From Chitinophagaceae bacterium (GTDB lineage: Bacteria > Bacteroidota > Bacteroidia > Chitinophagales > Chitinophagaceae), in contig JAHEZA010000012.1 in assembly GCA_023251335.1 (NCBI GenBank), forward strand, positions 1-14,952: a DNA stretch of 14,952 nt, written 5' to 3'. Made by a program: the position numbers and the translations under genes. Positions within the stretch are counted from its first letter, which is position 1; each line of letters begins with the position of its first letter. The notes beneath the pieces were generated by a model. That model searched no databases, was not told where the DNA came from, and was given only the letters and a program-made list of their open reading frames with translations. Positions 1-14,952 of this stretch are shown here, piece after piece.

Positions 1-270
1 TGATGCTGTCGAAAATCATTTGTCAGTAATTTAATCTTTTTATTTTTCTTTCCATCACGCTGTCTTTTTAATGTTAATTGCTGACAAGATGCTTGTTGGT
101 TTTCCAGAGGTAAAAAAGAAAATTGGGTCCATTGAATCCGCTGTCATAAAAAATTTTTTTACAAAAATAAATTCTAATACCGGTGAATGAACAAATAAAC
201 GTAGTTTCTATTTTTTCTTATTTTCCATAGAACTGGTTTGACTTTTGAAGTATTCGTAAAAAAATACATC

Positions 271-1008
271 ATGCCCGAAGGCCCGTCCATTATTATTTTG
301 AAAGAAGAAGTGCAATCCTTTATTGGAAAAAGGATAGTAAAAGTAGAAGGTAATAGTAAACTTGATATTCAGCGTTTATCCGGAAAAGAAATAATTGATT
401 TTAAAAGTTGGGGAAAGCATTTTTTAATTTGCTTTAAAGATTTTATAGTTCGCATACATTTTATGTTGTTCGGCAGTTATCGCATCAACGAACAAAAAGA
501 AGCTGCTCCACGATTGCGCTTAATTTTTAAGAACGGTGAAATAAATTTTTATGCCTGTTCAGTAAAATTTATTGAAGAAGATTTGAACGAAGTGTATGAT
601 TGGACATCCGATGTGATGAGTGATTTTTGGAATCCGAAAGCTGCCAAACAAAAATTAAAAAAAATTCCGAATGCTTTAGTTTGTGATGCGTTGCTCGATC
701 AACATATTTTTACAGGAGTTGGGAATATCATAAAAAATGAAGTGCTTTTCAGAACCCGGATTCATCCTGAAAGTGAGGTTGGCCAATTGCCGGCAAAGAA
801 AGTAAGTGAGCTAATTAAGGAAGCGCGCAATTATTGCTTTGATTTTTTGAAATGGAAAAAGGAATATGTTTTAAGGAAACATTGGCTTGCTCATACTAAA
901 AAAATATGTCCTCGATGCCACATCCCGTTTGTCAAAAAACATTGTGGCAAAAAAAACCGAAGAAGTTTTTTTTGCGAAAATTGCCAGATTTTATATGCAA
1001 AAGAATGA
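271..1008 (+). CDS. Fpg/Nei-family DNA glycosylase (endonuclease VIII-like)
   Basis: Bifunctional base-excision-repair glycosylase/AP lyase that removes oxidised bases and nicks the strand. The ATG at 271 is chosen because it gives MPEGPS: Pro2 (the Schiff-base nucleophile after Met removal) and Glu3 are the catalytic residues of this family. Further visible features are a conserved-type Lys in SWGKH (residue 49), a helix-two-turn-helix with FTGVGNIIKNE (about 147-157), and a C-terminal zinc finger with CxxC pairs at 213/216 and 235/238 and an Arg in the beta-hairpin between them. The length of 245 aa is slightly short for the family (about 260-275). The frame stays open upstream to a TTG at 238, but that start would bury the catalytic proline. 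No good promoter or Shine-Dalgarno is seen. Whether it prefers purine (Fpg) or pyrimidine (Nei) lesions cannot be told from sequence alone; the PEGPS start and compact size lean towards Nei-like. Confidence 0.9.
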   Translation: MPEGPSIIILKEEVQSFIGKRIVKVEGNSKLDIQRLSGKEIIDFKSWGKHFLICFKDFIVRIHFMLFGSYRINEQKEAAPRLRLIFKNGEINFYACSVKFIEEDLNEVYDWTSDVMSDFWNPKAAKQKLKKIPNALVCDALLDQHIFTGVGNIIKNEVLFRTRIHPESEVGQLPAKKVSELIKEARNYCFDFLKWKKEYVLRKHWLAHTKKICPRCHIPFVKKHCGKKNRRSFFCENCQILYAKE

Positions 1009-1059
1009 ACATGTTTTTGGCATTTTCCTTGTTGTCAGAAATATCAAAAAATCAATATT

Positions 1060-1209
1060 ATGATACGCAAATTAAAATCCGGGGAATACCGCCTGTATTC
1101 AAAAAAAGTAAATCCGAAAACGCACAAACGTCGAAATTTAGGAACATTTTCATCAAGGGGAGCAGCGCAAAAACACGAGCAGGAAATTCAATATTTTAAG
1201 AGACATTAA
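1060..1209 (+). CDS. Small conserved basic protein, 49 aa
   Basis: A short gene whose translation starts MIRKLKSGEYRLYSKK, continues VNPKTHKRRNLGTFSS and ends QYFKRH before TAA at 1207-1209. I recognise it from memory as a small protein with the pattern IRKLKSGxYRLYSxK..PKTxKRRNLGTF...A..HE..VQYFKRH, recurrent in Bacteroidota and some other bacteria and normally annotated hypothetical. It is strongly basic (many Lys/Arg), has no signal peptide or membrane segment, and the GEYRLYSKK/RNLGTF strand pattern suggests a small beta-rich nucleic-acid-binding fold; that function is inference. It begins 52 bases after the glycosylase stop on the same strand and may be co-transcribed. It ends 31 bases before the convergent metallopeptidase gene. 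A longer frame across 906-1199 is a shadow of the glycosylase end. Confidence 0.72.
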   Translation: MIRKLKSGEYRLYSKKVNPKTHKRRNLGTFSSRGAAQKHEQEIQYFKRH

Positions 1210-1224
1210 TTGATATCAGATGCA

Positions 1225-1241
1225 GATCATCAGGCATGATC
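1225..1241. terminator. Hairpin between convergent gene ends
   Basis: GATCAT and ATGATC form a perfect 6-bp stem around the loop CAGGC. It sits exactly where the plus-strand small gene and the minus-strand metallopeptidase gene converge, touching the latter's stop codon (1240-1242). No T-tract follows on either strand, so an intrinsic terminator role is only suggested by position. Confidence 0.25.
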
Positions 1242-2094
1242 AAAAACTTCCTGAGGCAAAAGTATCACCTTGGTTTAAATCGCCGGTTTCATAACCTTTT
1301 TTGAACCAGTACATTCTTTGTGCAGAAGTGCCGTGAGTAAAAGAATCCGGAGTTACAGTTCCCTGGTATTCCTGTTGCAATCGATCATCACCAATGGCGT
1401 TGGCAGCATTTAAAGCCTGATCAATATCTTCAGGCTTAATGACATTTTTCATCTTTTGATCGTAATGCGCCCATACGCCGGCATAGAAATCAGCTTGTAA
1501 TTCCAGCCTGACAGAATATTTATTGTATTCAGTTTCGCTTAGCTGCTGCTGAAGTTGCTGCATTTTTTGTGTTACTCCTAAAAGGTATTGCACATGATGG
1601 CCTACTTCATGGGCCACTACATACGCCATGGCAAATTCTCCTGTAGCGCCAAACTGATCCCGCAACTGTTGGGCAAATGAAAGATCAATGTATAAGTTAT
1701 GATCTGCGGGGCAATAAAAAGGTCCGGTAGTTGCACTTGCATTACCGCATCCTGTGGATACCCCGCCACGAAACAAGACAAGAGTAGGATCCGTATAAGT
1801 GCGGCCCATGTCATTAAATAATTTAGTCCATACATCCTCGGTGTCTGCCAGCACCACTTTCACAAATGCAGCCTCTTTGTCATCAGCGGCTTGTTGCTGC
1901 TGAGTCATTTCGGTTTGCTGCTGCTGCGGTTGCTGTATTATTTGACTCAGGTCGTTGATGTCCCCATCGCCCAACAAAAATTTAGCGAGAATAAATATCA
2001 CGCCAATTACACCACCGCCGATTGCCAATCCGCCACCGGAAACTCCCCTGCGGTCATCTACATTTGTGCTTTCTCTTCTGCCTTGCCATTGCAT
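1240..2094 (-). CDS. ypfJ: YpfJ-family neutral zinc metallopeptidase
   Basis: Member of the putative neutral zinc metallopeptidase family (YpfJ/KPN_02809 type, Pfam Zn_peptidase). Order of parts over 284 aa: a charged N-terminus typical of the family (MQWQGRREST..DDRRG), one membrane segment at about 21-41 (glycine- and isoleucine-rich), a Gln-rich linker at about 52-69, then the protease domain. The zinc site is HEVGHH at 162-167, with a downstream RLELQADFYAGVW (196-208) that fits the third ligand region. GCGNA (116-120) and FYCPADHNLYIDL (126-138) are other family signatures. It is probably anchored in the inner membrane with the catalytic domain outside. Its substrate is unknown for the family. 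The start at 2094 is supported by the family N-terminus and a -7 element 39 bases upstream. It lies 102 bp downstream of the crotonase gene on the same strand. Confidence 0.9.
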   Translation of the reverse strand: MQWQGRRESTNVDDRRGVSGGGLAIGGGVIGVIFILAKFLLGDGDINDLSQIIQQPQQQQTEMTQQQQAADDKEAAFVKVVLADTEDVWTKLFNDMGRTYTDPTLVLFRGGVSTGCGNASATTGPFYCPADHNLYIDLSFAQQLRDQFGATGEFAMAYVVAHEVGHHVQYLLGVTQKMQQLQQQLSETEYNKYSVRLELQADFYAGVWAHYDQKMKNVIKPEDIDQALNAANAIGDDRLQQEYQGTVTPDSFTHGTSAQRMYWFKKGYETGDLNQGDTFASGSF

Positions 2095-2129
2095 AATGAT
2101 AAATTTTGATAGAGTTAATTACGTTTCCC

Positions 2130-2149
2130 AAATCAAATATATTTGATTT
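2130..2149 (-). promoter_or_regulatory. Perfect 20-bp palindrome overlapping the metallopeptidase -7 element
   Basis: AAATCAAATATATTTGATTT is self-complementary over all 20 bases. On the minus strand it contains TATATTTG, an exact match to the Bacteroidota -7 consensus TAnnTTTG, ending 39 bases before the start codon of the zinc metallopeptidase gene. A TTG lies 15 bases further upstream, a little close for a -33 element. Because of the symmetry the same -7 box also reads on the plus strand, where no gene follows. It could be a promoter, a dimeric regulator's operator, or both. Confidence 0.45.
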
Positions 2150-2196
2150 TTAATTCCAACAGAACTGAACGATCGAAGTGATTTCCGGAATAAAAA

Positions 2197-2970
2197 TCAT
2201 ATTCTTTTTTTCGCTTTTACTTTTTCCTTAAAAGCTTCTATGGCTTTTTTTGTAAAATCGCTTAGAATTAATCGACCGCTTATAGCAGCTCTTTCTTTTA
2301 AAAGCGTATCCCAATCATCTGTGCCATGCCAAAACATTTTCTTCATTTCCGCCATCGCTTCCGGATTGAAATGTGACAATGAGGTTGAAAGCCTGTCAAT
2401 GGATTCATCCATATCATTTACTGATTGATGTACTTCGGCAAACAATCCTTTTTGTTTGGCCCAGTCAGCGTTGCGCCAGAGTGTAGCGTCTATTGAAAGC
2501 TGGCTAAATGCTGAATCACCGATTTTTCTTTTTATAGCCGGCCCCACAACAAATGGTGCCATGCCAATAGATAGTTCGCTCAATTTTACATCAACGTCTT
2601 TTACGGCTATTGCGTAATCCACAGCAGCAGCAAGGCCTACACCGCCGCCAACACATTTTCCATGAATGCGTCCGATAATCAGTTTAGGACATTTTCGCAT
2701 CTCATTAATTACGTTAGCAAAGCCGGAAAAAAATTCCATTCCTTCTTTTTGACTTTTGATTGTTATCAATTCATCGAAGCTTGCTCCGGCACAAAAAGCG
2801 CCATAGCCTGCACTTTTTAATACCACCACTTTTGAGTCGTGCGTTCCGGCATAATGGATCTCCTGCCTGAGTGCATCTAACATTTTTAGCGGAAGAGAAT
2901 TGCTCTGCGGATGAAAAAATTCAATGGTAGTAATGCCATGTTCTGAATGAGATTTTACATATCCTTCCAT
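2197..2970 (-). CDS. Enoyl-CoA hydratase/isomerase (crotonase) family protein
   Basis: Crotonase-fold enzyme of 257 aa acting on CoA thioesters. The two oxyanion-hole regions are visible: CAGASFDEL (60-68) and GKCVGGGVGLA (104-114). The Glu equivalent to rat hydratase Glu164 is present (LSELSIG, E132), but the Glu144 position (GGG-x-E) is occupied by Gly112. This is a one-glutamate active site, more like Delta3-Delta2-enoyl-CoA isomerases, and the following GMAPF also recalls isomerase sequences. The gene starts 20 bp after the paaZ stop on the same strand, so the two are almost certainly one operon, suggesting a role in phenylacetyl-CoA or similar acyl-CoA breakdown. Whether it is PaaF-, PaaG- or methylglutaconyl-CoA-hydratase-like cannot be settled here, so no symbol is given. 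The C-terminus is Lys-rich. Confidence 0.85.
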   Translation of the reverse strand: MEGYVKSHSEHGITTIEFFHPQSNSLPLKMLDALRQEIHYAGTHDSKVVVLKSAGYGAFCAGASFDELITIKSQKEGMEFFSGFANVINEMRKCPKLIIGRIHGKCVGGGVGLAAAVDYAIAVKDVDVKLSELSIGMAPFVVGPAIKRKIGDSAFSQLSIDATLWRNADWAKQKGLFAEVHQSVNDMDESIDRLSTSLSHFNPEAMAEMKKMFWHGTDDWDTLLKERAAISGRLILSDFTKKAIEAFKEKVKAKKRI

Positions 2971-2990
2971 ATTTTGTACGATTTATTTTA

Positions 2991-5066
2991 CTATTTAGTT
3001 TGTTTTCTTACCATCGTGAGTATCGTCCCGACGCCTATTAACGGGTCTTCTGTTTCATCTAAAATTTCCACATACCATTTTACAATTCCCCTCGGAATAA
3101 GCATTCCTTTTACATGCATTGTTTCCGGAGTTATTTCTTTTAATTCCTGTTCAATTTTTTCTTTGCAGGTCAATTTAATATAAATTTCGGTACCCGGATA
3201 AACCGGCTTTGTAAACCGCAACTCTTCTATTCCATAATTCAATAGAACGGGGTTTTTTTCGTAGCTGTCAACAAACAACCCTGCAGCCGCACTCATAATA
3301 AAGTAACCATGTGCTACCTGTTGCTCGAACATGGTATCTGAGAAATCTGTTGTTTTGATATGTGCATAAAAATGATCTCCACTTAGATCCGCGAACTTAT
3401 CAATATCTTCTGATGTAATTTTTCTTTTCGCTGTAATTAGCTGCTCCCCGATTCTTAATTCTTCAAAATATTTTTTGAACGGATGAATCGTATCTGTTCT
3501 TCCAATAGCTCCGGGTTGATACACATTGGTGATCGCAGTAAGCATCGTTGGCGAACCTTGTACGGCCACTCTCTGCATATAATGTTTTATTCCGCGCAAG
3601 CCTCCCATTTCTTCTCCACCGCCTGCCCGCCCCGGGCCGCCATGAACCAACATGGGCAAAGGCGAGCCATGACCGGTACTTTCTTTGGAGCAATCCCTGT
3701 TGAGCACTAAAATTCTTCCATGATAAGTACCTGCACCTAGAATAAAATTCTTCGAAAATTGTTCGTTTACTGTAACTATCGAACTGCATAAACTTCCCTT
3801 TCCCAATTTAGCAAGAGCAATGACTTCATCAATATTTTTATAAGGCATGATGGTACTCACAGGTCCAAATGCTTCTACAGAATGTGCTTCATCGCTCGCG
3901 AAAGGGTGTTCATTTTTTAAAAGCAACGGACTTATAAAAGCCCCTTTTTTATCATCGGCATCTATCAATTCCACACTGTCCAGGCTGCCATAAATTATTT
4001 GAGAAGAAGCCAATAGTTTTTGCACCTGTTCCAGGACTTCTTTTTTTTGCGATTGTCCCGCGAGCGATCCCATGCGCACTTTTTCATTTTCAGGATTTCC
4101 GATAGTTGTTTCTGCTAAGGATTTGCTGAGTGCCATCCACACATCCTCCATTTTATTTTCGGGAACAAAGATCCTTCGGATGGCGGTGCATTTCTGCCCG
4201 CATTTGGAAGTCATTTCTTTACGTATTTCCTTGATGAAAATATCCCACTCAGGCATCGTTGGCGTTACATCATCCCCAAGAACAATACAGTTCAGAGAAT
4301 CCGCTTCCAGGTTAAAAGGAACATTTTCGCGAAGCACATTCGGATTGGATTTTAAAATTAATCCTGTGGTTGCCGAGCCGGTAAAAGTGATCACATCCTG
4401 CGACGTAACATGATCCAGCATATCTCCTGCGCTTCCGCAAATCAATTGCAGAGCACCTTCCGGTAAAATTTTTGAAGCAATAATTTCTCTTACAACCGCC
4501 TCGGTTAAATAAGAAGTGATAGATGCTGGTTTCACTACCGCGGCTACACCTGCTAATAAATTGACTGCGATTTTTTCCAGCATTCCCCATACAGGAAAAT
4601 TAAAAGCATTGATATGAATTACAACGCCTTCTTTCGGTAGTAAAATGTGCTGTGCTGCAAAAGTGCCGCCTTTGCTTAATCCGATATTTTCTCCGTCCAG
4701 CGCGAAAATTTCATCGGGAAGTTTTCTTCTTAATGATGCATTGGAAAAAAGATTCCCAATGCCACCTTCAATATCAACCCAGCTATCAGCACGGGTTGCA
4801 CCAGTTTTATAACTGAGCTGATAAAATTTTTCTTTGTGTTCCAAAAGGTGAAGCGCCAGTGCTTTCAACATCCTGCCTCTTTCCTGGAAAGTCATTTTTC
4901 TTAACGCCGGGCTTCCTGTTTTTCTTCCATATTCAAGAATAGAAGCAAAATCCAGACCTTTGGTAGTAGCTTTTGCAATTATTTGTCCGTTTACTGCATT
5001 GTATAATTGTTGTCCATCGCCATCGCCTTCTATCCATTTGCCGAGGACATAATTTCCGAGTTTCAT
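2991..5066 (-). CDS. paaZ: PaaZ: oxepin-CoA hydrolase / 3-oxo-5,6-dehydrosuberyl-CoA semialdehyde dehydrogenase
   Basis: Bifunctional cytoplasmic enzyme of aerobic phenylacetate degradation. The C-terminal MaoC-like (R)-hydratase domain opens oxepin-CoA, and the N-terminal aldehyde dehydrogenase oxidises the resulting semialdehyde with NADP. The length of 691 aa is close to E. coli PaaZ (681). Dehydrogenase domain (about 1-515): NAFNFPVWG (153-161), the cofactor loop FTGSATTG (228-235), general base E254 in NLEADS and catalytic C293 in CGQKCTA, which line up with E. coli Glu256 and Cys295. A PaaZ-type segment, HGGPGRAGGGEEMGGLRG, is at 475-492. Hydratase domain (about 530-690): FADLSGDHFYAH (558-569) with the D-x4-H pair D560/H565, then HGYFIMSAAAG (586-596). 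It is first gene of a minus-strand pair with a crotonase. No other paa genes (epoxidase paaABCDE, ligase paaK) are visible. It ends in TAG. Confidence 0.95.
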   Translation of the reverse strand: MKLGNYVLGKWIEGDGDGQQLYNAVNGQIIAKATTKGLDFASILEYGRKTGSPALRKMTFQERGRMLKALALHLLEHKEKFYQLSYKTGATRADSWVDIEGGIGNLFSNASLRRKLPDEIFALDGENIGLSKGGTFAAQHILLPKEGVVIHINAFNFPVWGMLEKIAVNLLAGVAAVVKPASITSYLTEAVVREIIASKILPEGALQLICGSAGDMLDHVTSQDVITFTGSATTGLILKSNPNVLRENVPFNLEADSLNCIVLGDDVTPTMPEWDIFIKEIRKEMTSKCGQKCTAIRRIFVPENKMEDVWMALSKSLAETTIGNPENEKVRMGSLAGQSQKKEVLEQVQKLLASSQIIYGSLDSVELIDADDKKGAFISPLLLKNEHPFASDEAHSVEAFGPVSTIMPYKNIDEVIALAKLGKGSLCSSIVTVNEQFSKNFILGAGTYHGRILVLNRDCSKESTGHGSPLPMLVHGGPGRAGGGEEMGGLRGIKHYMQRVAVQGSPTMLTAITNVYQPGAIGRTDTIHPFKKYFEELRIGEQLITAKRKITSEDIDKFADLSGDHFYAHIKTTDFSDTMFEQQVAHGYFIMSAAAGLFVDSYEKNPVLLNYGIEELRFTKPVYPGTEIYIKLTCKEKIEQELKEITPETMHVKGMLIPRGIVKWYVEILDETEDPLIGVGTILTMVRKQTK

Positions 5067-5385
5067 TTAAGTAGAGATTTTTCAGTTACGATCCGATTGC
5101 ATCAAATTACACGAATTTACACTAATTAAGAAATTAAGAATAGAAAGAAGATTTGGGTACTTGAAAATAAACCGGATTCAAAAGTTCCTAAACTGCCGCA
5201 ACATTTTGAGTCTATTGGCAAGTGCTAAAACCAAACTTTGAAAAGCTGGTTGAAAATTAATTCAACTCAGTATTAGATCTTAATGGTTTTATGAAAAGCC
5301 TGTTCTTTTCAGTTTGAATTTTTAGGGTTCCATTTAACCTTTTTTTAACCCTGTAACAAATACATTTGCCAACTTAAACTTATTT
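5067..5385. other. Divergent intergenic region with short tandem repeats
   Basis: This 319-bp AT-rich spacer separates the divergent paaZ and beta-barrel genes and must hold both promoters. Close to paaZ, 5106-5127 is a near-tandem ATTACACGA / ATTTACACTA / ATT, followed by an exact 8-bp tandem ATTAAGAA (5125-5132 and 5133-5140). Read on the minus strand the first motif is AATTAGTGTAAATTCGTGTA, which resembles short repeats I recall from Bacteroidota intergenic DNA (memory, not searched). No open reading frame is worth calling. Confidence 0.4.
5361..5368 (+). promoter_or_regulatory. -7 promoter element for the beta-barrel gene
   Basis: TACATTTG matches the Bacteroidota -7 consensus TAnnTTTG exactly and ends 17 bases before the ATG at 5386, implying a very short leader. 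No clear TTTG -33 box lies at the usual 17-23 base distance. Confidence 0.45.
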
Positions 5386-6120
5386 ATGAAGAAAATTGTT
5401 TTTGTAGCCATTTCTTGCCTGTTTTTTAGCATGGCATTTTCACAGGATGCCGAACCCTCTACTGCAAAAACAAAGAGTTCAAAAATGAATAACATAGCGG
5501 CTGATCATTTTATGATGCAATTTAGCTATGATCATTGGTCAGGTATGCCGGATAGCATTGACAGCCACCAGTCAGGGTTTTCAAGAGGTTTTAATGCATA
5601 TTTCATGTATAATAAATTTCTAAAAACAAATCCAAAATTAAGTTTGGCGGGAGGATTGGGTGTTAGCACCAGCAATATTTATTTCAAAAAAATGAATGTG
5701 GATTTAATTGCTACTACTCCTACACTTCCATTTACACATCTTGACTCTACCAATCACTTCAAGAAATATAAAGTGGCTACTACTTATCTTCAGATACCCC
5801 TGGAATTTCGGTATTTTTCCAGGCCGGACGAGCCTAACAAAAGCTTTAAGGTGGCAATCGGTGCAAAGGTTGGGACTCTTTTGAACGCGCATTCAAAAGG
5901 GAAAACTATGGAAAATAAAAATGGGCAGGAGATTAACGCTTTTGCTCAGAAAGAGCTCAGCAAAAGATATATAAGTAGCACTCAATATATGGCAACCCTA
6001 CGAATTGGGTATGGCATTTTTTCTGCTTTCGGTTCTTACCAACTCAATAATGTTTTAAAAAACGGCACAGGACCAGGCATGCATTTATTACAGGTTGGCC
6101 TTACTATCAGCGGCTTATAG
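5386..6120 (+). CDS. Outer-membrane beta-barrel protein, unknown function
   Basis: A secreted protein of 244 aa with a clear Sec signal peptide (MKKIVFVAISCLFFSMAFSQ, cleavage near residues 19-20), a short disordered Ser/Thr/Lys stretch, then alternating amphipathic strands separated by turns: FMMQFSYDHW, GFNAYFMYNKF, KLSLAGGLGVSTS, TTYLQIPLEFRYF, FKVAIGAKVG, YMATLRIGYGIFSAFGSYQL, and a final strand LLQVGLTISGL. This pattern, including YLQIPLEFRY and the closing hydrophobic strand, is typical of small PorT/OmpW-like outer-membrane barrels in Bacteroidota. No specific function can be assigned. It is probably monocistronic: a -7 box lies just upstream and a stem-loop overlaps its stop. SecA further downstream belongs to the pathway that would export it, but adjacency need not be functional. 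Confidence 0.8.
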   Translation: MKKIVFVAISCLFFSMAFSQDAEPSTAKTKSSKMNNIAADHFMMQFSYDHWSGMPDSIDSHQSGFSRGFNAYFMYNKFLKTNPKLSLAGGLGVSTSNIYFKKMNVDLIATTPTLPFTHLDSTNHFKKYKVATTYLQIPLEFRYFSRPDEPNKSFKVAIGAKVGTLLNAHSKGKTMENKNGQEINAFAQKELSKRYISSTQYMATLRIGYGIFSAFGSYQLNNVLKNGTGPGMHLLQVGLTISGL

Positions 6121-6125
6121 TGGCC
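6097..6125 (+). terminator. Possible terminator stem-loop at the end of the beta-barrel gene
   Basis: GGCC-tt-ACTAT pairs with ATAGT-GGCC across a 9-base loop, with TT as a bulge. The structure overlaps the TAG stop (6118-6120) and is followed by the pyrimidine-rich TCTCTTTCTC rather than a clean T-tract, so it is a weak candidate. Confidence 0.3.
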
Positions 6126-6182
6126 TCTCTTTCTCATAACTTCTATATGCATTATTTGTATTTCTAAGCAAATCAGATAAAG

Positions 6183-6190
6183 TATTTTTG
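6183..6190 (+). promoter_or_regulatory. -7 promoter element for hflX
   Basis: TATTTTTG is an exact TAnnTTTG match, with a TTTG at 6155-6158 as a loosely spaced (24-base) -33 candidate. It ends 18 bases before the TTG at 6209, almost the same spacing as seen for the beta-barrel gene. It overlaps the alternative TTG start at 6188, which argues against that start. Confidence 0.4.
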
Positions 6191-6208
6191 CTATTTAAAA
6201 CATCTCTA

Positions 6209-7399
6209 TTGATAGAAAAAAAATTAAATTATAATAATCCGGTTAATGCTGTTTTGGTGGCTGTAATTCAAAATGGACAAACTGAGCATTTAATAATAGA
6301 ATACCTCGACGAATTAAAATTCCTTGCCGAAACAGCAGGTGCCACCACACTAAAAACATTCACACAAAAATTAGATCATCCTGATAGCCGCACTTTTGTA
6401 GGAAAAGGCAAACTTGAAGAAATAAAAAATTATGTATCCCGCAAAAATGTGGAATTGGTAATTTTTGATGATGAACTAACCGGTTCGCAGATCTCTAACA
6501 TAGAAAAAGAGTTAAAAGTTTTAGTGATAGATAGAAGCGATTTGATTCTGGACATTTTTGCTGCAAGGGCTAAAACTGCTCAGGCAAAGGTGCAGGTAGA
6601 ACTTGCTCAATACCAATACATTTTACCCAGGTTAAAAGGCATGTGGAAGCATCTTGAAAGACAAGGTGGTGGCATCGGAAGTCGCGGACCTGGAGAAACG
6701 GAAATTGAAACAGACAGGCGGATTGTAAAAGATAAGATCAGCCTGTTGAGAAAGAGGCTAACCGAAATAGATAAACAATCTTTCACCCAGCGCAAAGACC
6801 GCGGTGAATTTATAAGAGTTGCGTTGGTAGGATATACCAATGTTGGGAAATCAACCATAATGAACCTACTGAGTAAGAGTGATGTCTTTGCAGAAAATAA
6901 ATTATTTGCCACCTTGGATACTACCACCCGTAAAGTGGTGTTTGGCAATACGCCATTTCTTTTGAGCGATACGGTTGGTTTTATCAGGAAGCTTCCGCAT
7001 CATCTGATCGAAAGTTTTAAAAGCACCCTGGACGAAGTGAGAGAAGCAGATGTTTTAATTCACGTAGTGGATATTTCGCATCCCCGGTATGAGGAACAAC
7101 TGGCCGTGGTAAATAAAACATTACAGGAATTGAAAAGCTTTGAAAAGCCTGTTATCACTGTATTTAATAAAATGGATCAATATGAGAAAAATACCTTTGA
7201 CCAATGGTTGGATCCATCAGTAAAGCAACAATTATTGGAAGATTTAAAACAGCAATGGCAGGAACACACACATGGTAATTGTGTATTTATTTCTGCCACT
7301 GAAAAAACTAATATTGCGGAACTACGGCAAGTAGTGCTGAACCAGGTCAGAAAATTATACCAGGTAAAATATCCTTACAAAGCGGAATTTTTTTACTGA
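6209..7399 (+). CDS. hflX: GTPase HflX
   Basis: Ribosome-associated GTPase of the OBG/HflX group, known in other bacteria to bind 50S subunits and split stalled or heat-damaged ribosomes. The N-terminal HflX domain carries SRTFVGKGKLEEI and the glycine-rich signature GGIGSRGPGETEIETDRR (about 154-171). The G domain shows G1 GYTNVGKS (208-215), G3 DTVGFIRKLP (254-263), G4 NKMD (320-323) and G5 SATEKTNI (362-369). The frame opens at TTG 6188, but I prefer TTG 6209 (396 aa, giving IEKKLN after Met) because an exact -7 box covers 6183-6190 and a transcript starting there would not contain 6188. No ATG is available before conserved sequence, so a non-ATG start is required either way. The Rieske gene follows after 9 bases. 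Confidence 0.93.
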   Translation: MIEKKLNYNNPVNAVLVAVIQNGQTEHLIIEYLDELKFLAETAGATTLKTFTQKLDHPDSRTFVGKGKLEEIKNYVSRKNVELVIFDDELTGSQISNIEKELKVLVIDRSDLILDIFAARAKTAQAKVQVELAQYQYILPRLKGMWKHLERQGGGIGSRGPGETEIETDRRIVKDKISLLRKRLTEIDKQSFTQRKDRGEFIRVALVGYTNVGKSTIMNLLSKSDVFAENKLFATLDTTTRKVVFGNTPFLLSDTVGFIRKLPHHLIESFKSTLDEVREADVLIHVVDISHPRYEEQLAVVNKTLQELKSFEKPVITVFNKMDQYEKNTFDQWLDPSVKQQLLEDLKQQWQEHTHGNCVFISATEKTNIAELRQVVLNQVRKLYQVKYPYKAEFFY

Positions 7400-7408
7400 T
7401 TCAATAAG

Positions 7409-7738
7409 ATGGAAAAGAAAAATAATTGGATCAAAATAGCCAACAAACCTGGTGAGATTATTTTCCCGGAAAATAACATTGCCAAAATAACTGTCAAAGA
7501 AAAAGCCATTTGCGTGATACAAAAGGATGGTGGCTTAAAGGCCTGTGTGTCAAAATGCCCACATGCAGGAGGGGATCTTTCGGATGGATATTTAGATAAG
7601 AGAAATCATATCGTCTGTCCGGTTCATTGCTATCGCTTTAATTTAGATAGCGGTCGGGATAACAACGGGGAAGGCTATTTTTTAAAGATTTTCCCTATAA
7701 AAATAGAGAAAGACGGCATATTTGTGGCGTTAGAATAA
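7409..7738 (+). CDS. Rieske 2Fe-2S domain protein
   Basis: A single-domain Rieske ferredoxin-like protein of 109 aa, soluble, without signal or transmembrane segment. The cluster-binding motif is complete: C50-P-H52 (box 1, KCPHAGGDLSDG) and C70-P-V-H73 (box 2, VCPVHCYRFNLDSG), matching CxH...CxxH. Such small proteins resemble the NirD subunit of nitrite reductase or the ferredoxin component of dioxygenases and pass electrons to a partner enzyme. No oxygenase, reductase or nitrite reductase large subunit is in the window, so the partner is unknown. The ATG lies 9 bases after the hflX stop, implying co-transcription, although no biochemical link with HflX is known to me. It ends with two stops in tandem (TAA TGA, 7736-7741). 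Confidence 0.88.
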   Translation: MEKKNNWIKIANKPGEIIFPENNIAKITVKEKAICVIQKDGGLKACVSKCPHAGGDLSDGYLDKRNHIVCPVHCYRFNLDSGRDNNGEGYFLKIFPIKIEKDGIFVALE

Positions 7739-7783
7739 TGATAAATAACTGTATGAGCAGGTAAGATAAAACCTACAATTTAG

Positions 7784-7791
7784 TAACTTCG
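7784..7791 (+). promoter_or_regulatory. Candidate -7 element upstream of secA
   Basis: TAACTTCG differs from TAnnTTTG at one base. It lies 88 bases before the secA ATG in the 141-bp gap after the Rieske gene. TACAATTTG closer to the gene (one base too long between TA and TTTG) is an alternative. Neither has a convincing -33 box. Confidence 0.25.
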
Positions 7792-7879
7792 CAACCCTGT
7801 CATTTTGACTACGAAAAATTTCCGCATACAATTTGACAACTTGCATTTATCAATATTTTTTTAAATAATAACTTATTCT

Positions 7880-9208
7880 ATGGCCGGGCTTCTCTCAGCA
7901 CTATTTGGTGGCAATAAAAGTGAAAAAGACGTAAAGAAAATAAATCCACTTGTTGGAAAAATCAATTCTTTTTTTGATGAGTATCAACCGTTGTCGAATG
8001 ACGAGTTGCGTAACAAAACAATTATTTTTAGGGACCGCATCAAAGAATATCTCAAAGAAATTGACGACCAAATCGAGTTACAAAAAATAGAAGCTGAGAA
8101 GTTGGATTCCGCTGATATCAGTGGCCGCGATGCCATTTACCGCCATATCGACGATATGCGCAAAGACAGGGATAAAAAACTGGAAGAAGTGCTTCTTGAA
8201 ATTTTGCCCGAGGCGTTTGCCGTAGTAAAAGAAACAGCCCGCCGTTTTAAAGATAATTCCGAATTAGAATCCACCGCCACAGAACTTGATAAGGAATTTG
8301 CACTTACAAAAAAATATATCCGCATTGAAGGAGATAAGGCCATTTATCAAAATAAATGGATCGCAGGCGGCACCGAAATTACCTGGAATATGCTTCACTA
8401 TGATGTTCAGTTGATCGGAGGAATTGTGTTGCATCAGGGAAAAATTGCCGAAATGGCAACCGGTGAAGGAAAGACGCTCGTTTCTACTTTGCCTGCATAC
8501 TTGAATGCGTTGGCAGGGCATGGGGTACATATCGTTACGGTGAATGACTACCTGGCCCGTCGTGACAGCGAGTGGAATGGAACTTTATTTGAGTGGCTTG
8601 GCCTTACGGTAGATTGTATTGATAAACACCAACCGAACAGCGAGGAGAGAAGGAAAGCTTACAGCAAAGACATTATTTACGGCACCAACAATGAATTTGG
8701 ATTTGATTATCTCCGCGATAATATGGTGCATACGCCGGAAGAAATGGTACAAGGCAAACATCATTTTGCCATGGTGGATGAGGTAGATAGCGTATTGATT
8801 GATGATGCCCGTACTCCATTGATTATTTCCGGTCCGATTCCCCGCGGCGATCAGCAGGAGTTTGATCAATTGAAACCGCGGGTAGAAAAAATTGTAGAGG
8901 CGCAAAAGAGAGTTACCAGCCAATTTTTGATAGAGGCTAAAAAGAAAATAGGTGAAGGAAACGATGATCCTAAAGATGGCGGCCTTGCGCTGTTTCGTTC
9001 TCATCGCGGGCTTCCAAAAAACAGCGCGCTGATAAAATACCTGAGTGAGCCGGGAATGAAAGTAAAACTTCAGAAAGTTGAAAATCATTATTTGTCAGAA
9101 CAGGAAAAAAACATGCCGTTCGTAGATGAAGAATTGTTTTTTGTTATTGATGAAAAAAATAACCAGGTACAGCTTACCGACAAAGGAATTGCCCTTATCA
9201 CAAAATAA
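7880..9208 (+). CDS. secA: SecA, N-terminal part (to the internal stop)
   Basis: The first 442 residues of the preprotein translocase ATPase. [17 protein letters not shown] is the usual amphipathic SecA N-terminus, which supports the ATG at 7880. The first nucleotide-binding domain holds Walker A MATGEGKT (192-199), [11 protein letters not shown] (219-229), [14 protein letters not shown] (269-282) and Walker [22 protein letters not shown] (299-319). The preprotein-cross-linking region follows, including the stretch [11 protein letters not shown] (371-381), which I recall as typical of Bacteroidota SecA. The product would end at ALITK, inside the cross-linking domain/second-ATPase-domain border region, and would lack NBD2, the scaffold and the C-terminal linker, so it could not hydrolyse ATP productively or drive export alone. 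Confidence 0.85.
9206..9208 (+). other. In-frame TAA inside secA
   Basis: The codon order is ACA AAA TAA GGC GAA GAC. The stop is in the secA frame and followed by G. TAA also terminates the 49-aa gene (1207-1209) and the Rieske gene (7736-7738), while TGA and TAG end the others, so TAA is not reassigned across the window. Confidence 0.9.
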
Positions 9209-9406
9209 GGCGAAGACCCTGAATTTTTTATCCTTCCTGACATAGGCGTTAAACTGGCCGAAATAGAAAAAACAGATGCTTCTACAGAGGAAAAGTTAGA
9301 ACAAAAAGAAAAGCTGTTAAACGACTATTCCATCAAGGCAGAGAGAATTCATACTGTTCAACAGTTATTAAAAGCTTATACTGTTTTTGAAAAGGATGTA
9401 GAATAT

Positions 9407-11212
9407 GTGGTTATAGACGGGCAGGTAAAAATTGTAGATGAGCAAACCGGCCGTATCATGGAAGGCCGCCGCTATTCTGATGGGCTTCACCAGGCAATAG
9501 AAGCAAAAGAAAATGTAAAAATAGAAAGCGCTACCCAAACATACGCTACTATTACATTACAGAATTATTTCAGGATGTACCACAAACTGGCTGGTATGAC
9601 TGGTACAGCCGAGACGGAAGCTTCAGAGTTCTGGGATATTTATAAATTGGATGTCGTTACGATCCCAACCAATGTTCCTGTGATAAGAGGTGACGAGCAG
9701 GATTTGGTTTTTAAAACCAAACGGGAAAAATACAAAGCCGTTATTGAAGAAGTAGAAGCCATGAGTAAGGCAGGCAGACCTATTCTTGTAGGCACCACTT
9801 CTGTTGAGGTAAGTGAATTGCTCAGCAGAATGATGAAGCAAAAGGGACTGGTCCACAATGTATTGAATGCAAAACAACATGCCAAAGAAGCGCAGGTTGT
9901 TGCCGAGGCGGGATTATCAGGCGCTGTTACGATTGCAACTAACATGGCGGGCCGCGGTACAGATATTAAGCTTGGCCCTGGCGTAAAAGAAGCAGGCGGA
10001 TTAGCTATTCTCGGAACAGAAAGACATGAAAGCCGCCGTGTGGACAGGCAGTTACGTGGTCGTGCCGGACGCCAGGGAGATCCTGGTTCATCCAAATTTT
10101 TTGTGTCGTTAGAAGATGATTTGATGCGCATGTTTGGTAGTGAAAAGATTGCTTCACTAATGGATAGAATGGGCTATAAAGAAGGCGAAGTGATCCAGCA
10201 TAAGATGATCTCAAAAAGTATTGAACGTGCGCAGAAAAAGGTGGAAGAAAATAACTTCGGTATCCGTAAAAGATTGCTGGAATATGACGACGTGATGAAC
10301 AAGCAACGTACGGTTATTTATGGAAAACGCAACCATGCTTTGTTTGGAGAACGGCTGGCGCTGGACCTTGATAACGCGTTTTATTCTGTTGCAGAAGGTA
10401 TTATCAATTCATTCAAAGAAATCAATAATCATGAGGAATTCAAGTTGGCTGTGATCATGAATTTCGGAATTGATACCACCATTACTTCTGAAGAATTAGA
10501 AAAAGAAGACCTGACCGAATTGGCCCACAAATTATATTATGAAGCTAAGGATCATTATAATCATAAGAATGAATTAATGAATCAACACACGCTTCCGGTG
10601 ATAAAAAATATCCGTAAAGACCAAGGCGCTCACATTGTGAATGTTGCCGTTCCCTTTACCGATGGTAAAAAAGCAATGCAGGCGATTGCCAATCTGGATA
10701 AAACCATTGAATCCAACGGAAGAGAGCTTACCAATGCGCTGGAACGAAACATTACACTTGCCCTGATTGATGATGCCTGGAAAGAGCATCTTCGGGCAAT
10801 GGACGATCTGAGACAAAGTGTGCAGACGGCGGGATATGAGCAAAAAGACCCATTAGTTATTTATAAAATAGAGGCATTTGGCGCCTTTAAACAAATGGAC
10901 GACCAGGTGAATAAAGATATCGTTAGTTTCCTTGCCCACTGTAGCATTCCGGTGGAGCAAAACAACCAGGCTACCAGGATAACTGAAGAAAGAAGGAGAA
11001 GAACAGACATGAGTAAAATGCGCCAGCGTAAAGAAGAATTTGCAGGCGCGGGCGGACCTGAATATCTTTCACCGGAGAATGAATATCATGATCCTTCCGA
11101 AAATCTAAAACAAGAACCGATACGGGTAGAACCCAAAGTGGGTAGAAATGATCCTTGCCCATGTGGTAGTGGAAAAAAATATAAAAATTGTCACGGAAGA
11201 GGCGAAGGATGA
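9407..11212 (+). CDS. secA: SecA, C-terminal part (after the internal stop)
   Basis: This is the rest of SecA in the same frame. The homologous sequence actually begins at 9209, but the first near-cognate start is GTG at 9407, in the middle of the conserved [17 protein letters not shown], and the first ATG is 9458. Neither has a ribosome site, and neither is likely to be a real start. Motifs include [48 protein letters not shown] and [14 protein letters not shown] (second ATPase domain), then the helical scaffold and wing domains, and at the extreme C-terminus a SEC-C zinc motif [16 protein letters not shown] (CxC-x8-CH) used for SecB/ribosome contacts. This shows that the 3' half is not decaying: every late motif is intact. 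Confidence 0.8.
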
Positions 11213-11590
11213 TAGCTGCCTGTGTAGATGTTGCTTCAGGACGGTATCGCCATCATTCTATAAAATATCTTGTTTACCAGAATTCGTACAGACCGGGTTT
11301 CGTATTTTCTTCATCTGAAAAATTTTTTTGGCAATCAAAAAAGAGAGCGCTTTCGCTAGCCTGTTTCTTTCCTATTTATTTTTCACATAAGATCCGTCAA
11401 AAATTCTGATGTCTTTTCAATAACCTACTGCTACGCTCGTTGTGATTGTTTTCCGTTAAGAAAGGAAGTATATACTGTATCAAATCCGAAATGGGGATTG
11501 AATTCTCTTTATATTTATATGATTTAAACTATTTTTGACCTAAGGTTCGATCGCTAATCATTTTTGAATTAATATAAAAAACTTGATTTT
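11213..11590. other. Intergenic region between secA and the DUF481 gene
   Basis: This is 378 bp without a supported gene. A 66-codon frame overlaps the secA stop by four bases (ATGA, 11209-11409), but its product has no recognisable features. A short hairpin AGCG-CTTT-CGCT lies near 11347-11358 without a T-tract. The right end holds the promoter of the following gene; otherwise I see nothing. Confidence 0.4.
11534..11566 (+). promoter_or_regulatory. Candidate promoter of the DUF481 gene
   Basis: TTTG at 11534-11537, 21 bases, then CATTTTTG at 11559-11566: a Bacteroidota -33/-7 pair with normal spacing and one mismatch (C for T) in the -7 box, 24 bases before the ATG at 11591. Confidence 0.4.
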
Positions 11591-12652
11591 ATGATTGGAA
11601 GTTTTAAGTTTTATCACCACGGTAGAAGAAGTTTAAAGTATTTATTGATGGTGGTAATATGCCATCTCTTTGTTGTCAGCGTAAGCGCTCAACACGATTC
11701 GCTAATCCTCAAAAATGGCGATGTAATTGTGGGAGAATTGAAATCGATGGATAAGGGCGTGCTGACAATTGAAACGCCTTATTCAAAAAGCGATTTTACG
11801 GTAGAATGGGACAAGATAAAACAAATATATTCCAAGAGTTATTTTTTGATTTCGCTAACCGATGGACAAAGATTTAACGGGTCCTTCCGGTCTGTCGGAA
11901 CGAAAGATACCGTGCAAATTCATAATGTAAATGGAGAAGATGTGAACGTGCGGATGCAGAACATCGTTTATCTGAAAGGATTAAAATCAGATTTTTGGAG
12001 CAGAATCACCGCAAGCATCGACCTTGGGTTAAGCCTGACAAAAGCCAATAATCTTCACCAACTGAATATCTCCACCAATGTTACCTACCTGGCAGACAAA
12101 TGGCAGTTGAATTTTTACTATAACGATCTCCGCTCCAAACAAGACAGCATTGCCTTAACCCGCCGTACGGATTGGGGTCCTACCTTCAAATACTTTTTGC
12201 AGAACGATTGGTTTCTGAACACATCCATCACTTTTCTTTCAAACACAGAACAGGCGCTCAATTTAAGAACAACAGGCAAGGCTGGTGCTGGTAAATACCT
12301 GGTTCATACCAATAAGAAATATTTTGGCCTTGGCGGTGGGTTATCGTATAATAACGAAACTTTTACCAACGGAACGCCGGGTCGTAACAGTATTGAAGGA
12401 TATGCAGGATTCGAATTAAATCTTTTTGACCTGAAAGATCTTGACCTCTTAAGCGATTTGTACGTTTATCCCAGTATCACAGAATCCGGGAGGTGGCGTT
12501 CTGATTTTTCTTTGGACTTGAAATACGACCTGCCAATGGACTTTTATATAAAATTGGGAACCTCGGTTAACTTTGATAACCGGCCCGCAATCAAGGGGAA
12601 TGAGTTTGACTACGTCACTAGTTTTTCAATAGGTTGGGATTTTAATGATTAG
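11591..12652 (+). CDS. DUF481 (YdiY-like) outer-membrane protein
   Basis: A protein of 353 aa with an N-terminal signal peptide: basic start, hydrophobic run at about 17-31, cleavage near VSVSAQ (residues 30-34). The mature N-terminus has two copies of a short beta motif, LKNGDVIVGEL (40-50) and LTDGQRFNGSF (88-98), like the small SH3-like domain often placed before DUF481 barrels. The rest (from about residue 135) is a run of amphipathic strands with aromatic girdles: ASIDLGLSLTKANN, ISTNVTYLADKWQLNFYY, WGPTFKYFLQNDWFLNTSITFLS, KYFGLGGGLSYNN, and a final strand FDYVTSFSIGWDFND. This matches YdiY/DUF481 proteins, called salt-induced outer-membrane proteins in some genomes. The physiological role is unknown. 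It is probably monocistronic. Confidence 0.82.
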   Translation: MIGSFKFYHHGRRSLKYLLMVVICHLFVVSVSAQHDSLILKNGDVIVGELKSMDKGVLTIETPYSKSDFTVEWDKIKQIYSKSYFLISLTDGQRFNGSFRSVGTKDTVQIHNVNGEDVNVRMQNIVYLKGLKSDFWSRITASIDLGLSLTKANNLHQLNISTNVTYLADKWQLNFYYNDLRSKQDSIALTRRTDWGPTFKYFLQNDWFLNTSITFLSNTEQALNLRTTGKAGAGKYLVHTNKKYFGLGGGLSYNNETFTNGTPGRNSIEGYAGFELNLFDLKDLDLLSDLYVYPSITESGRWRSDFSLDLKYDLPMDFYIKLGTSVNFDNRPAIKGNEFDYVTSFSIGWDFND

Positions 12653-13845: not shown

Positions 13846-14952
13846 ATGATCACTTCCCTTAATCAAAATATCAAATTCTCCGGAGATCCTATTGCGGATT
13901 TTTACACAGCGCATCCATATCCGCCTGCGGTCGAAAATCTTGAACATGTACTTGACGGGTGGCAGGATGCCAATCGCCGGCGGGCTGAATATCATTTATT
14001 CTGGCCTGGCAAACCCTACCGGTCCGATCTGAATATTCTTATTGCCGGCTGCGGTACCTGGCAGGCCGTAAAGTACGCATTGTGCTATCCGGGCGCCAGT
14101 GTGATTGGTATTGATGTAAGCGCTACAAGCCTCAGTGAAACTGAAAAGCTCAAACAAAAGTATAGCATCAATAACCTGCACACAGAGCAGCTGGCGATAG
14201 AAAAGGCAGGAGAATTGGGCAAAACTTTTGATCTGATCATTTGTACCGGTGTTTTGCACCACCTTAAAGATCCTGACGCCGGATTGAGGGCATTGGCTTC
14301 TGTGCTTGATGCCGATGGCGCGTTATATATGATGGTGTATGCATCTTATGGAAGGGCAGGCATTTATATGATGCAGGAATATTGCAGGATGCTGGGAATT
14401 GGTGCAACCACCAATGAGATCAACGATCTCAGGTGCGTCATCAAGGCGCTTTCGCCACAGCACCCACTCGTTTCATTACTGCAAAACTCTCTTGATTCCT
14501 ACAATGCGGATGCGCTGGCGGACGCGCTGCTAAACCCACGCGACAGAGCTTATTCCGTTCCGCAATTGTTTGCCTTTTTAGAGGAAAATGATTTATCGTT
14601 TGGCCGCTGGTACTTGCAGGCGCCTTACCTGCCTTATTGTGGCGCAATGGCTGCAACACCACATGCAGCGAAGTTGTTTGCAATGCCATGTAGTGAACAA
14701 TTCGCAGCGATGGAATTGTGGAGAGGAACAATGACACGACATAGCGCGATTGTTTATAGGGCAAGTAAACACGAGGTGATTGCTCCGGTTGATTTAGATG
14801 AGGCTGATTTTGAAAAATGCGTGCCGATTCGCCTGCCACACACTATCTGTGTAACCGAACGGCTTCCACCGGGCGCAGCCGGGGTTCTTCTTAACAGGAG
14901 TCATCAGTTTCACGATCTGGTACTACCAGTTGATGCGCAGCAAAAGAAGATA
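13846..14952 (+). CDS. Class I SAM-dependent methyltransferase (3' end outside the window)
   Basis: The frame is open from ATG 13846 to the last base (369 codons), so the C-terminus is missing. The N-terminus MITSLNQNIKFSGDPIADFYTAHPYPP (in part) is followed by a Rossmann methyltransferase core: motif I ILIAGCGT (64-71), the acidic strand-2 end GIDVS (88-92), motif IV region FDLIICTGVLHHLKDP (128-143), then GALYMMVYAS (158-167). The long region after residue 200 continues without recognisable domain and is larger than in a minimal methyltransferase. The substrate cannot be inferred; the HH after GVL is common in small-molecule methylases. GC content looks higher than in neighbouring genes (one early 60-base line is about 62% GC), which may hint at separate ancestry. 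An alternative start was not needed: no earlier in-frame ATG close by. Confidence 0.8.
   Translation, partial: MITSLNQNIKFSGDPIADFYTAHPYPPAVENLEHVLDGWQDANRRRAEYHLFWPGKPYRSDLNILIAGCGTWQAVKYALCYPGASVIGIDVSATSLSETEKLKQKYSINNLHTEQLAIEKAGELGKTFDLIICTGVLHHLKDPDAGLRALASVLDADGALYMMVYASYGRAGIYMMQEYCRMLGIGATTNEINDLRCVIKALSPQHPLVSLLQNSLDSYNADALADALLNPRDRAYSVPQLFAFLEENDLSFGRWYLQAPYLPYCGAMAATPHAAKLFAMPCSEQFAAMELWRGTMTRHSAIVYRASKHEVIAPVDLDEADFEKCVPIRLPHTICVTERLPPGAAGVLLNRSHQFHDLVLPVDAQQKKI

Follow-up and report, generated by a model that had tools for sequence, protein, structure and literature searches.

Nearly every bacterium depends on SecA and IF-2 for its survival. The window analysed here, a stretch of 14,952 nucleotides, is one whole contig (C57) of a fragmented Chitinophagaceae draft genome (671 contigs, 3.40 Mb, 85.8% complete), and it carries a secA frame with a single TAA in its interior. 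Is this gene broken, is the stop codon read through in the cell, or is a base wrong in the assembly? The initial annotation of the window set four options side by side without ranking them, namely a base-call error, a very recent nonsense mutation with a second secA elsewhere, tRNA suppression and programmed readthrough. The checks described below favour the base-call error, and they favour neither a second secA nor tRNA suppression nor programmed readthrough.

The secA frame and its interruption

The frame is divided by the TAA into an upstream and a downstream piece (Table 1). Joined across the stop, it scores 910.9 bits against TIGR00963 (cut-off 800) with one TAA inside, and all five Pfam domains are found across the two pieces, which places the gene among the SecA preprotein translocase ATPases. 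The upstream piece comprises most of SecA_DEAD, and the cross-linking domain for preproteins probably starts within it. The downstream piece consists of SecA_PP_bind from profile position 33 on, the last part of SecA_DEAD, P-loop_SecA, SecA_SW and SEC-C. The earlier reading, that no indel accompanies the TAA, holds: it is codon 443 of 1,111, no frame shift or indel was found in secA, where alignments to relatives continue through without a shift, and the frame contains no further internal stop. Pfam likewise bears out the earlier statement that the SecA domains are intact on either side, SEC-C included. The same domain set is seen in the SecA proteins of Bacteroidota and Chitinophagaceae (TIGR00963; source names Hanamia and Ginsengibacter), and the closest listed homologue (P0002) is 96% identical and uninterrupted. 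Compared to these proteins, the lone TAA at codon 443 is the difference of the present copy.

Past the stop, the first in-frame start-like codon is a GTG. A SecA made in two pieces would end at residue 442, restart near this GTG and be assembled into a working motor. SecA domains are kept in both halves, as such a protein would require, but the restart would lose 66 codons of conserved sequence and with them part of SecA_PP_bind, a loss that the initial annotation had already pointed out.

Table 1 Features of the secA locus, companion stops in the same draft and other genes of the window.
Feature	Sequence	Position	Strand	Remarks
secA frame	window (C57)	7880-11212	+	1,111 codons, last codon TGA; open but for one TAA
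secA upstream of the TAA	window (C57)	7880..9205	+	442 codons; most of SecA_DEAD (PF07517 residues 11-353)
In-frame TAA	window (C57)	9206..9208	+	codon 443; Ser in the congener column; most likely a consensus error
secA downstream of the TAA	window (C57)	9209..11212	+	667 codons and TGA; domains by Pfam
GTG	window (C57)	9407..9409	+	first in-frame start-like codon past the TAA, 66 codons downstream
infB (IF-2), lone in-frame TAA	L197, contig C52	4214
Permease, presumably LolC/E-like, lone in-frame TAG	L149, contig C4	1750	-
PF13366 protein, lone in-frame TAA	L170, contig C25	325
PF06439 protein, lone in-frame TAG	L172, contig C27	5137	-
Fpg/Nei-type DNA glycosylase gene	window (C57)	238-1008		PF01149, PF06831; frame open
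Methyltransferase gene	window (C57)	13846-14952		at contig end

Two other genes of the window are recorded here as observations in their own right. One is an uninterrupted gene for an Fpg/Nei-type DNA glycosylase. The other is the methyltransferase gene at the contig end, which has a GC content of 0.484, compared with 0.392 for positions 1-12652, and finds weak generic methyltransferase matches or none in 19 other same-genus genomes; it may have been transferred recently, or this end of the contig may be chimeric.

Codon 443 in relatives

Twenty-nine loci from the genus and the family were fetched, and 28 of them cover codon 443. At this column we observed Ser in 20, Ala in seven and Thr in one, and all 14 same-genus loci that cover the site have Ser. 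The 120 best homologues listed are similar (113 Ser, 7 Ala), and 80 more distant loci from GTDB 220 show varied residues and two gaps. A stop at this column was found in none of these 108 loci and in none of the 120 listed homologues; the one internal stop flagged among these matches, in L083, is the natural end of that frame. The alignments point to Ser as the residue lost at codon 443. The proposal of Gln or Lys made from the window itself finds no support, as the congeners have Ser.

In 20 same-genus genomes, our own included, the other listed secA matches contain no stop, except for two weak SEC-C hits of about 36 residues each (G009 and G013), which lie below the cut-off and have stops reported inside. 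We take these stops, and those in some weak below-cut-off matches to other GTPases in other genomes, to be alignments overrunning frame ends. Among the sequences compared, the TAA is private to this assembly.

If codon 443 were a site of programmed readthrough or recoding, the TAA would regulate the SecA level. The frame is indeed open and conserved past the stop, but a stop with such a role would be expected to recur in orthologues at this column, where the counts are 0 of 108 loci and 0 of 120 listed homologues. We give this reading next to no credence.

Constraint on both sides of the stop

Identity to P0002 is 0.952 before the TAA and 0.967 after it. Compared with locus L006, the dN/dS of secA is 0.04 before the TAA and 0.016 after it, values that are rough owing to a high dS of about 2; some other secA pairs gave no dS. 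At gap-free columns that are otherwise invariant among 121 SecA proteins, our own SecA has no private change, a property that it shares with others (81 of the 121, own included). A decayed pseudogene was considered and rejected, there being no other stop or frame shift and a low dN/dS on both sides of the TAA. Because secA shows no decay, the TAA would have to be either very recent or absent from the cell.

A true and very recent nonsense allele would belong to a strain or subpopulation whose cells are dying, rely on intact neighbours or survive on weak background readthrough. Many short-lived true in-frame stops in bacterial genes are reported by Belinky et al. 2021 (PMC7918605), who also expect a substantial part of the raw cases to be artefacts and keep only stops common to at least two species. 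The stops described there resemble the secA TAA in having purifying selection on either side; the secA TAA would nevertheless fail this filter, as none of the other species compared shows it. The second secA that had been suggested alongside a nonsense mutation was not found: the contigs of the draft, which is 85.8% complete, hold one secA only.

Companion stops in conserved genes of the same draft

A coding-potential scan for stops with coding-like flanks covered 119 of the 671 contigs (681,313 bases, about 20% of the draft) and returned 19 candidates, the highest-ranking of which was the secA stop. Family evidence places five of the 19 within a single gene each: secA, infB, a permease that we take to be LolC/E-like, and the genes of a PF13366 and a PF06439 protein (Table 1). 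Several of the 14 other candidates resemble adjacent genes in one frame; the family tests covered the five.

With the IF-2 model, which was run on 30 genomes, our own infB contains one TAA and the 26 other matches above the cut-off contain none. The column of this stop is Glu in both congeners compared, and Glu, Lys, Ser and Asn in four order-level relatives. The permease has the Pfam domain MacB_PCD before its TAG and FtsX after it; the TAG is present once in our own copy, is absent from the other matches listed, and stands in a column that is Ser in all seven congener loci compared. In the PF13366 protein, profile positions 2-32 are matched before the TAA and 35-117 after it, and in the PF06439 protein positions 76-141 precede the TAG and 143-187 follow it. 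The evidence for these last two stops is the continuity of the Pfam profile, to which the comparison with relatives is added in infB and the permease. Judging by the family consensus, the lost residue is presumably Glu in the PF13366 gene and Trp in the PF06439 gene. Consensus errors would be expected to leave lone stops in further conserved genes, and the draft shows this pattern; the stops in infB and the permease are absent from the relatives searched.

A pooled coding model applied to our own contigs flagged four of the five stops again, missing the one in the PF06439 gene, among eight candidates in total. When applied to 80 other loci, it gave 128 candidates, mostly opposite the secA strand; as a comparator it is too unspecific to yield a rate or to show an excess of lone stops in this draft over others. 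A crude frameshift scan of the draft gave one doubtful match, adjoining a run of unknown bases.

A random substitution in coding sequence creates a stop in 4.7% of cases. The five stops would then correspond to roughly 1.6 errors in 10,000 bases, and to about 1.3 when secA, the starting case, is left out; at the former rate the 3.3 kb of secA should contain around half an error. A change from C:G to A:T in the congener codon fits three of the five stops (secA, permease and infB), and the share of this class is 28% if substitution is uniform. The PF13366 stop would be of the same class if its lost residue is Glu, and the PF06439 stop would not be if its lost residue is Trp, as presumed for both. 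Such a bias could arise from oxidation of the library DNA or from a mutator, five stops being too few for a verdict. A mutator could produce true nonsense alleles with the pattern seen in secA, the permease and infB, but secA, infB and the permease would then all have been hit at once in one genome, two of them encoding proteins that almost no bacterium can do without. A true nonsense allele is in our view unlikely.

Decoding of stop codons in the draft

In nonsense suppression, a suppressor tRNA or an altered release factor would read the stops and allow full-length SecA to be made, in line with the conserved sequence downstream of the TAA. A tRNA search of the draft gave 173 candidates, of which 150 were scored and 24 accepted, and no anticodon TTA or CTA is present among these 24. 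The set is without tRNAs for Ala, Asn, Asp, His and Ile, so some tRNA genes are missing from it, and the release factors are represented by RF2 and a probable RF1 piece (RF1 below its cut-off), both apparently cut by contig ends; this leaves suppression some room. Weighing against it, apart from the anticodons, is that TAA and TAG replace unlike residues (Ser and Glu, as judged by congeners), which is not a clean fit for one suppressor. Moreover, both codons close long open runs: among 334 stops that end open runs of at least 200 codons in any frame of 99 contigs, 215 are TAA and 45 are TAG. We consider suppression very unlikely.

A genome-wide reassignment of TAA was rejected, since TAA still closes 215 of these 334 runs, and here our result agrees with the initial annotation. 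Its own argument, that TAA ends at least two other genes of the window, stands for one: among eight likely genes whose ends were read, only that at 7409-7738 closes with TAA. The frame at 906-1199 (97 amino acids) also does so, and its status as a gene is improbable. A set that spans two different stop codons, no fewer than two lost residues and a number of indispensable genes is not accounted for by one suppressor tRNA, one reassigned codon or a regulatory stop in secA; random wrong bases would account for it.

Broken SecA frames in other assemblies

A profile search of 394 genomes of the family found a match in 379. Among the 150 SecA matches listed, two contain an internal stop, namely our own and that of G193:C253, both from fragmented drafts. 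In the latter draft (420 contigs, 84% complete), a single TAA with intact flanks stands at SecA column 670 (L226, position 2964).

The first 442 residues of SecA and the 601 residues from the GTG onward served as separate queries, and for each the best 120 of 8,000 scored matches were aligned to full SecA. Only one of the 120 listed first-part matches, P0126, ends at residue 442. This protein has 442 residues, is 90% identical, lies on a contig of 3,467 bases and ends at the exactly homologous residue; because it is named 'partial', its end is likely the contig edge. Another protein, P0132, is 99% identical and covers residues 1-379 only. Among the 120 best later-part matches listed, identity does not exceed 94%, and about a dozen start at residues 507-519, some of them on long contigs (P0250, P0304 and P0322). 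We read these as starts chosen by gene callers past an upstream break or a contig edge; alternatively, they could mark an internal start that is used.

A two-piece SecA gains something from the public SecA proteins that start at residues 507-512, near the GTG, a few of them on long contigs. However, gene callers pick such starts after any upstream break, and the matching end at residue 442 is seen in P0126 alone among the 120 first-part matches listed. We regard a working motor in two parts as barely conceivable. The broken frames in other assemblies also lend slight weight to a true nonsense allele.

Four SecA pieces that start at residues 451-512 (P0250, P0304, P0322 and P0355) are found on contigs of at least 51,588 bases; in these assemblies either the frame is broken or an internal start is used. 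P0125 and P0250 are two SecA pieces that both lie on a contig of 1,819,960 bases; this is likely one and the same contig, with a frame break in another assembly.

A consensus error as the probable source of the TAA

From these sequence comparisons, we consider it highly probable that the TAA is a consensus error in the draft and that secA would be an ordinary, intact, single-copy gene in the organism. This explanation is favoured because the TAA is private, because secA is undecayed, and because conserved genes of the same draft carry TAA and TAG companions. In a fragmented draft, one wrong consensus base would be enough to create the TAA at codon 443. Wrong bases scattered across the draft would, where they fall in stop-prone codons, appear as lone in-frame stops. 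We infer that the cells carry an intact codon and that the error belongs to the assembly; several of the interrupted genes are indispensable to the cell. Two observations speak against an error: nothing else in secA looks wrong, and in other assemblies P0126 ends at the homologous residue and SecA pieces start near the GTG.

The pattern resembles the false nonsense codons that consensus errors introduce into draft and metagenome-assembled genomes. As in those cases, the stop is isolated, the gene is undecayed and the draft is fragmented; unrelated genes are hit, by TAA as well as TAG, a likeness drawn here from the sequence. In a literature search on nonsense mutation and readthrough in secA, the matches listed do not mention secA.

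For an apparently broken essential gene, these results suggest that the conserved genes of the same draft be checked for like breaks before suppression is invoked. It is exceedingly improbable that in a living Chitinophagaceae population secA, infB and the permease gene all truly contain their TAA or TAG and that the full-length proteins are made by broad, codon-unspecific readthrough, for example because a release factor is weakened. Were the stops real, translation of several essential proteins would have to pass a stop codon, and this would constitute a major exception to translation termination in bacteria.
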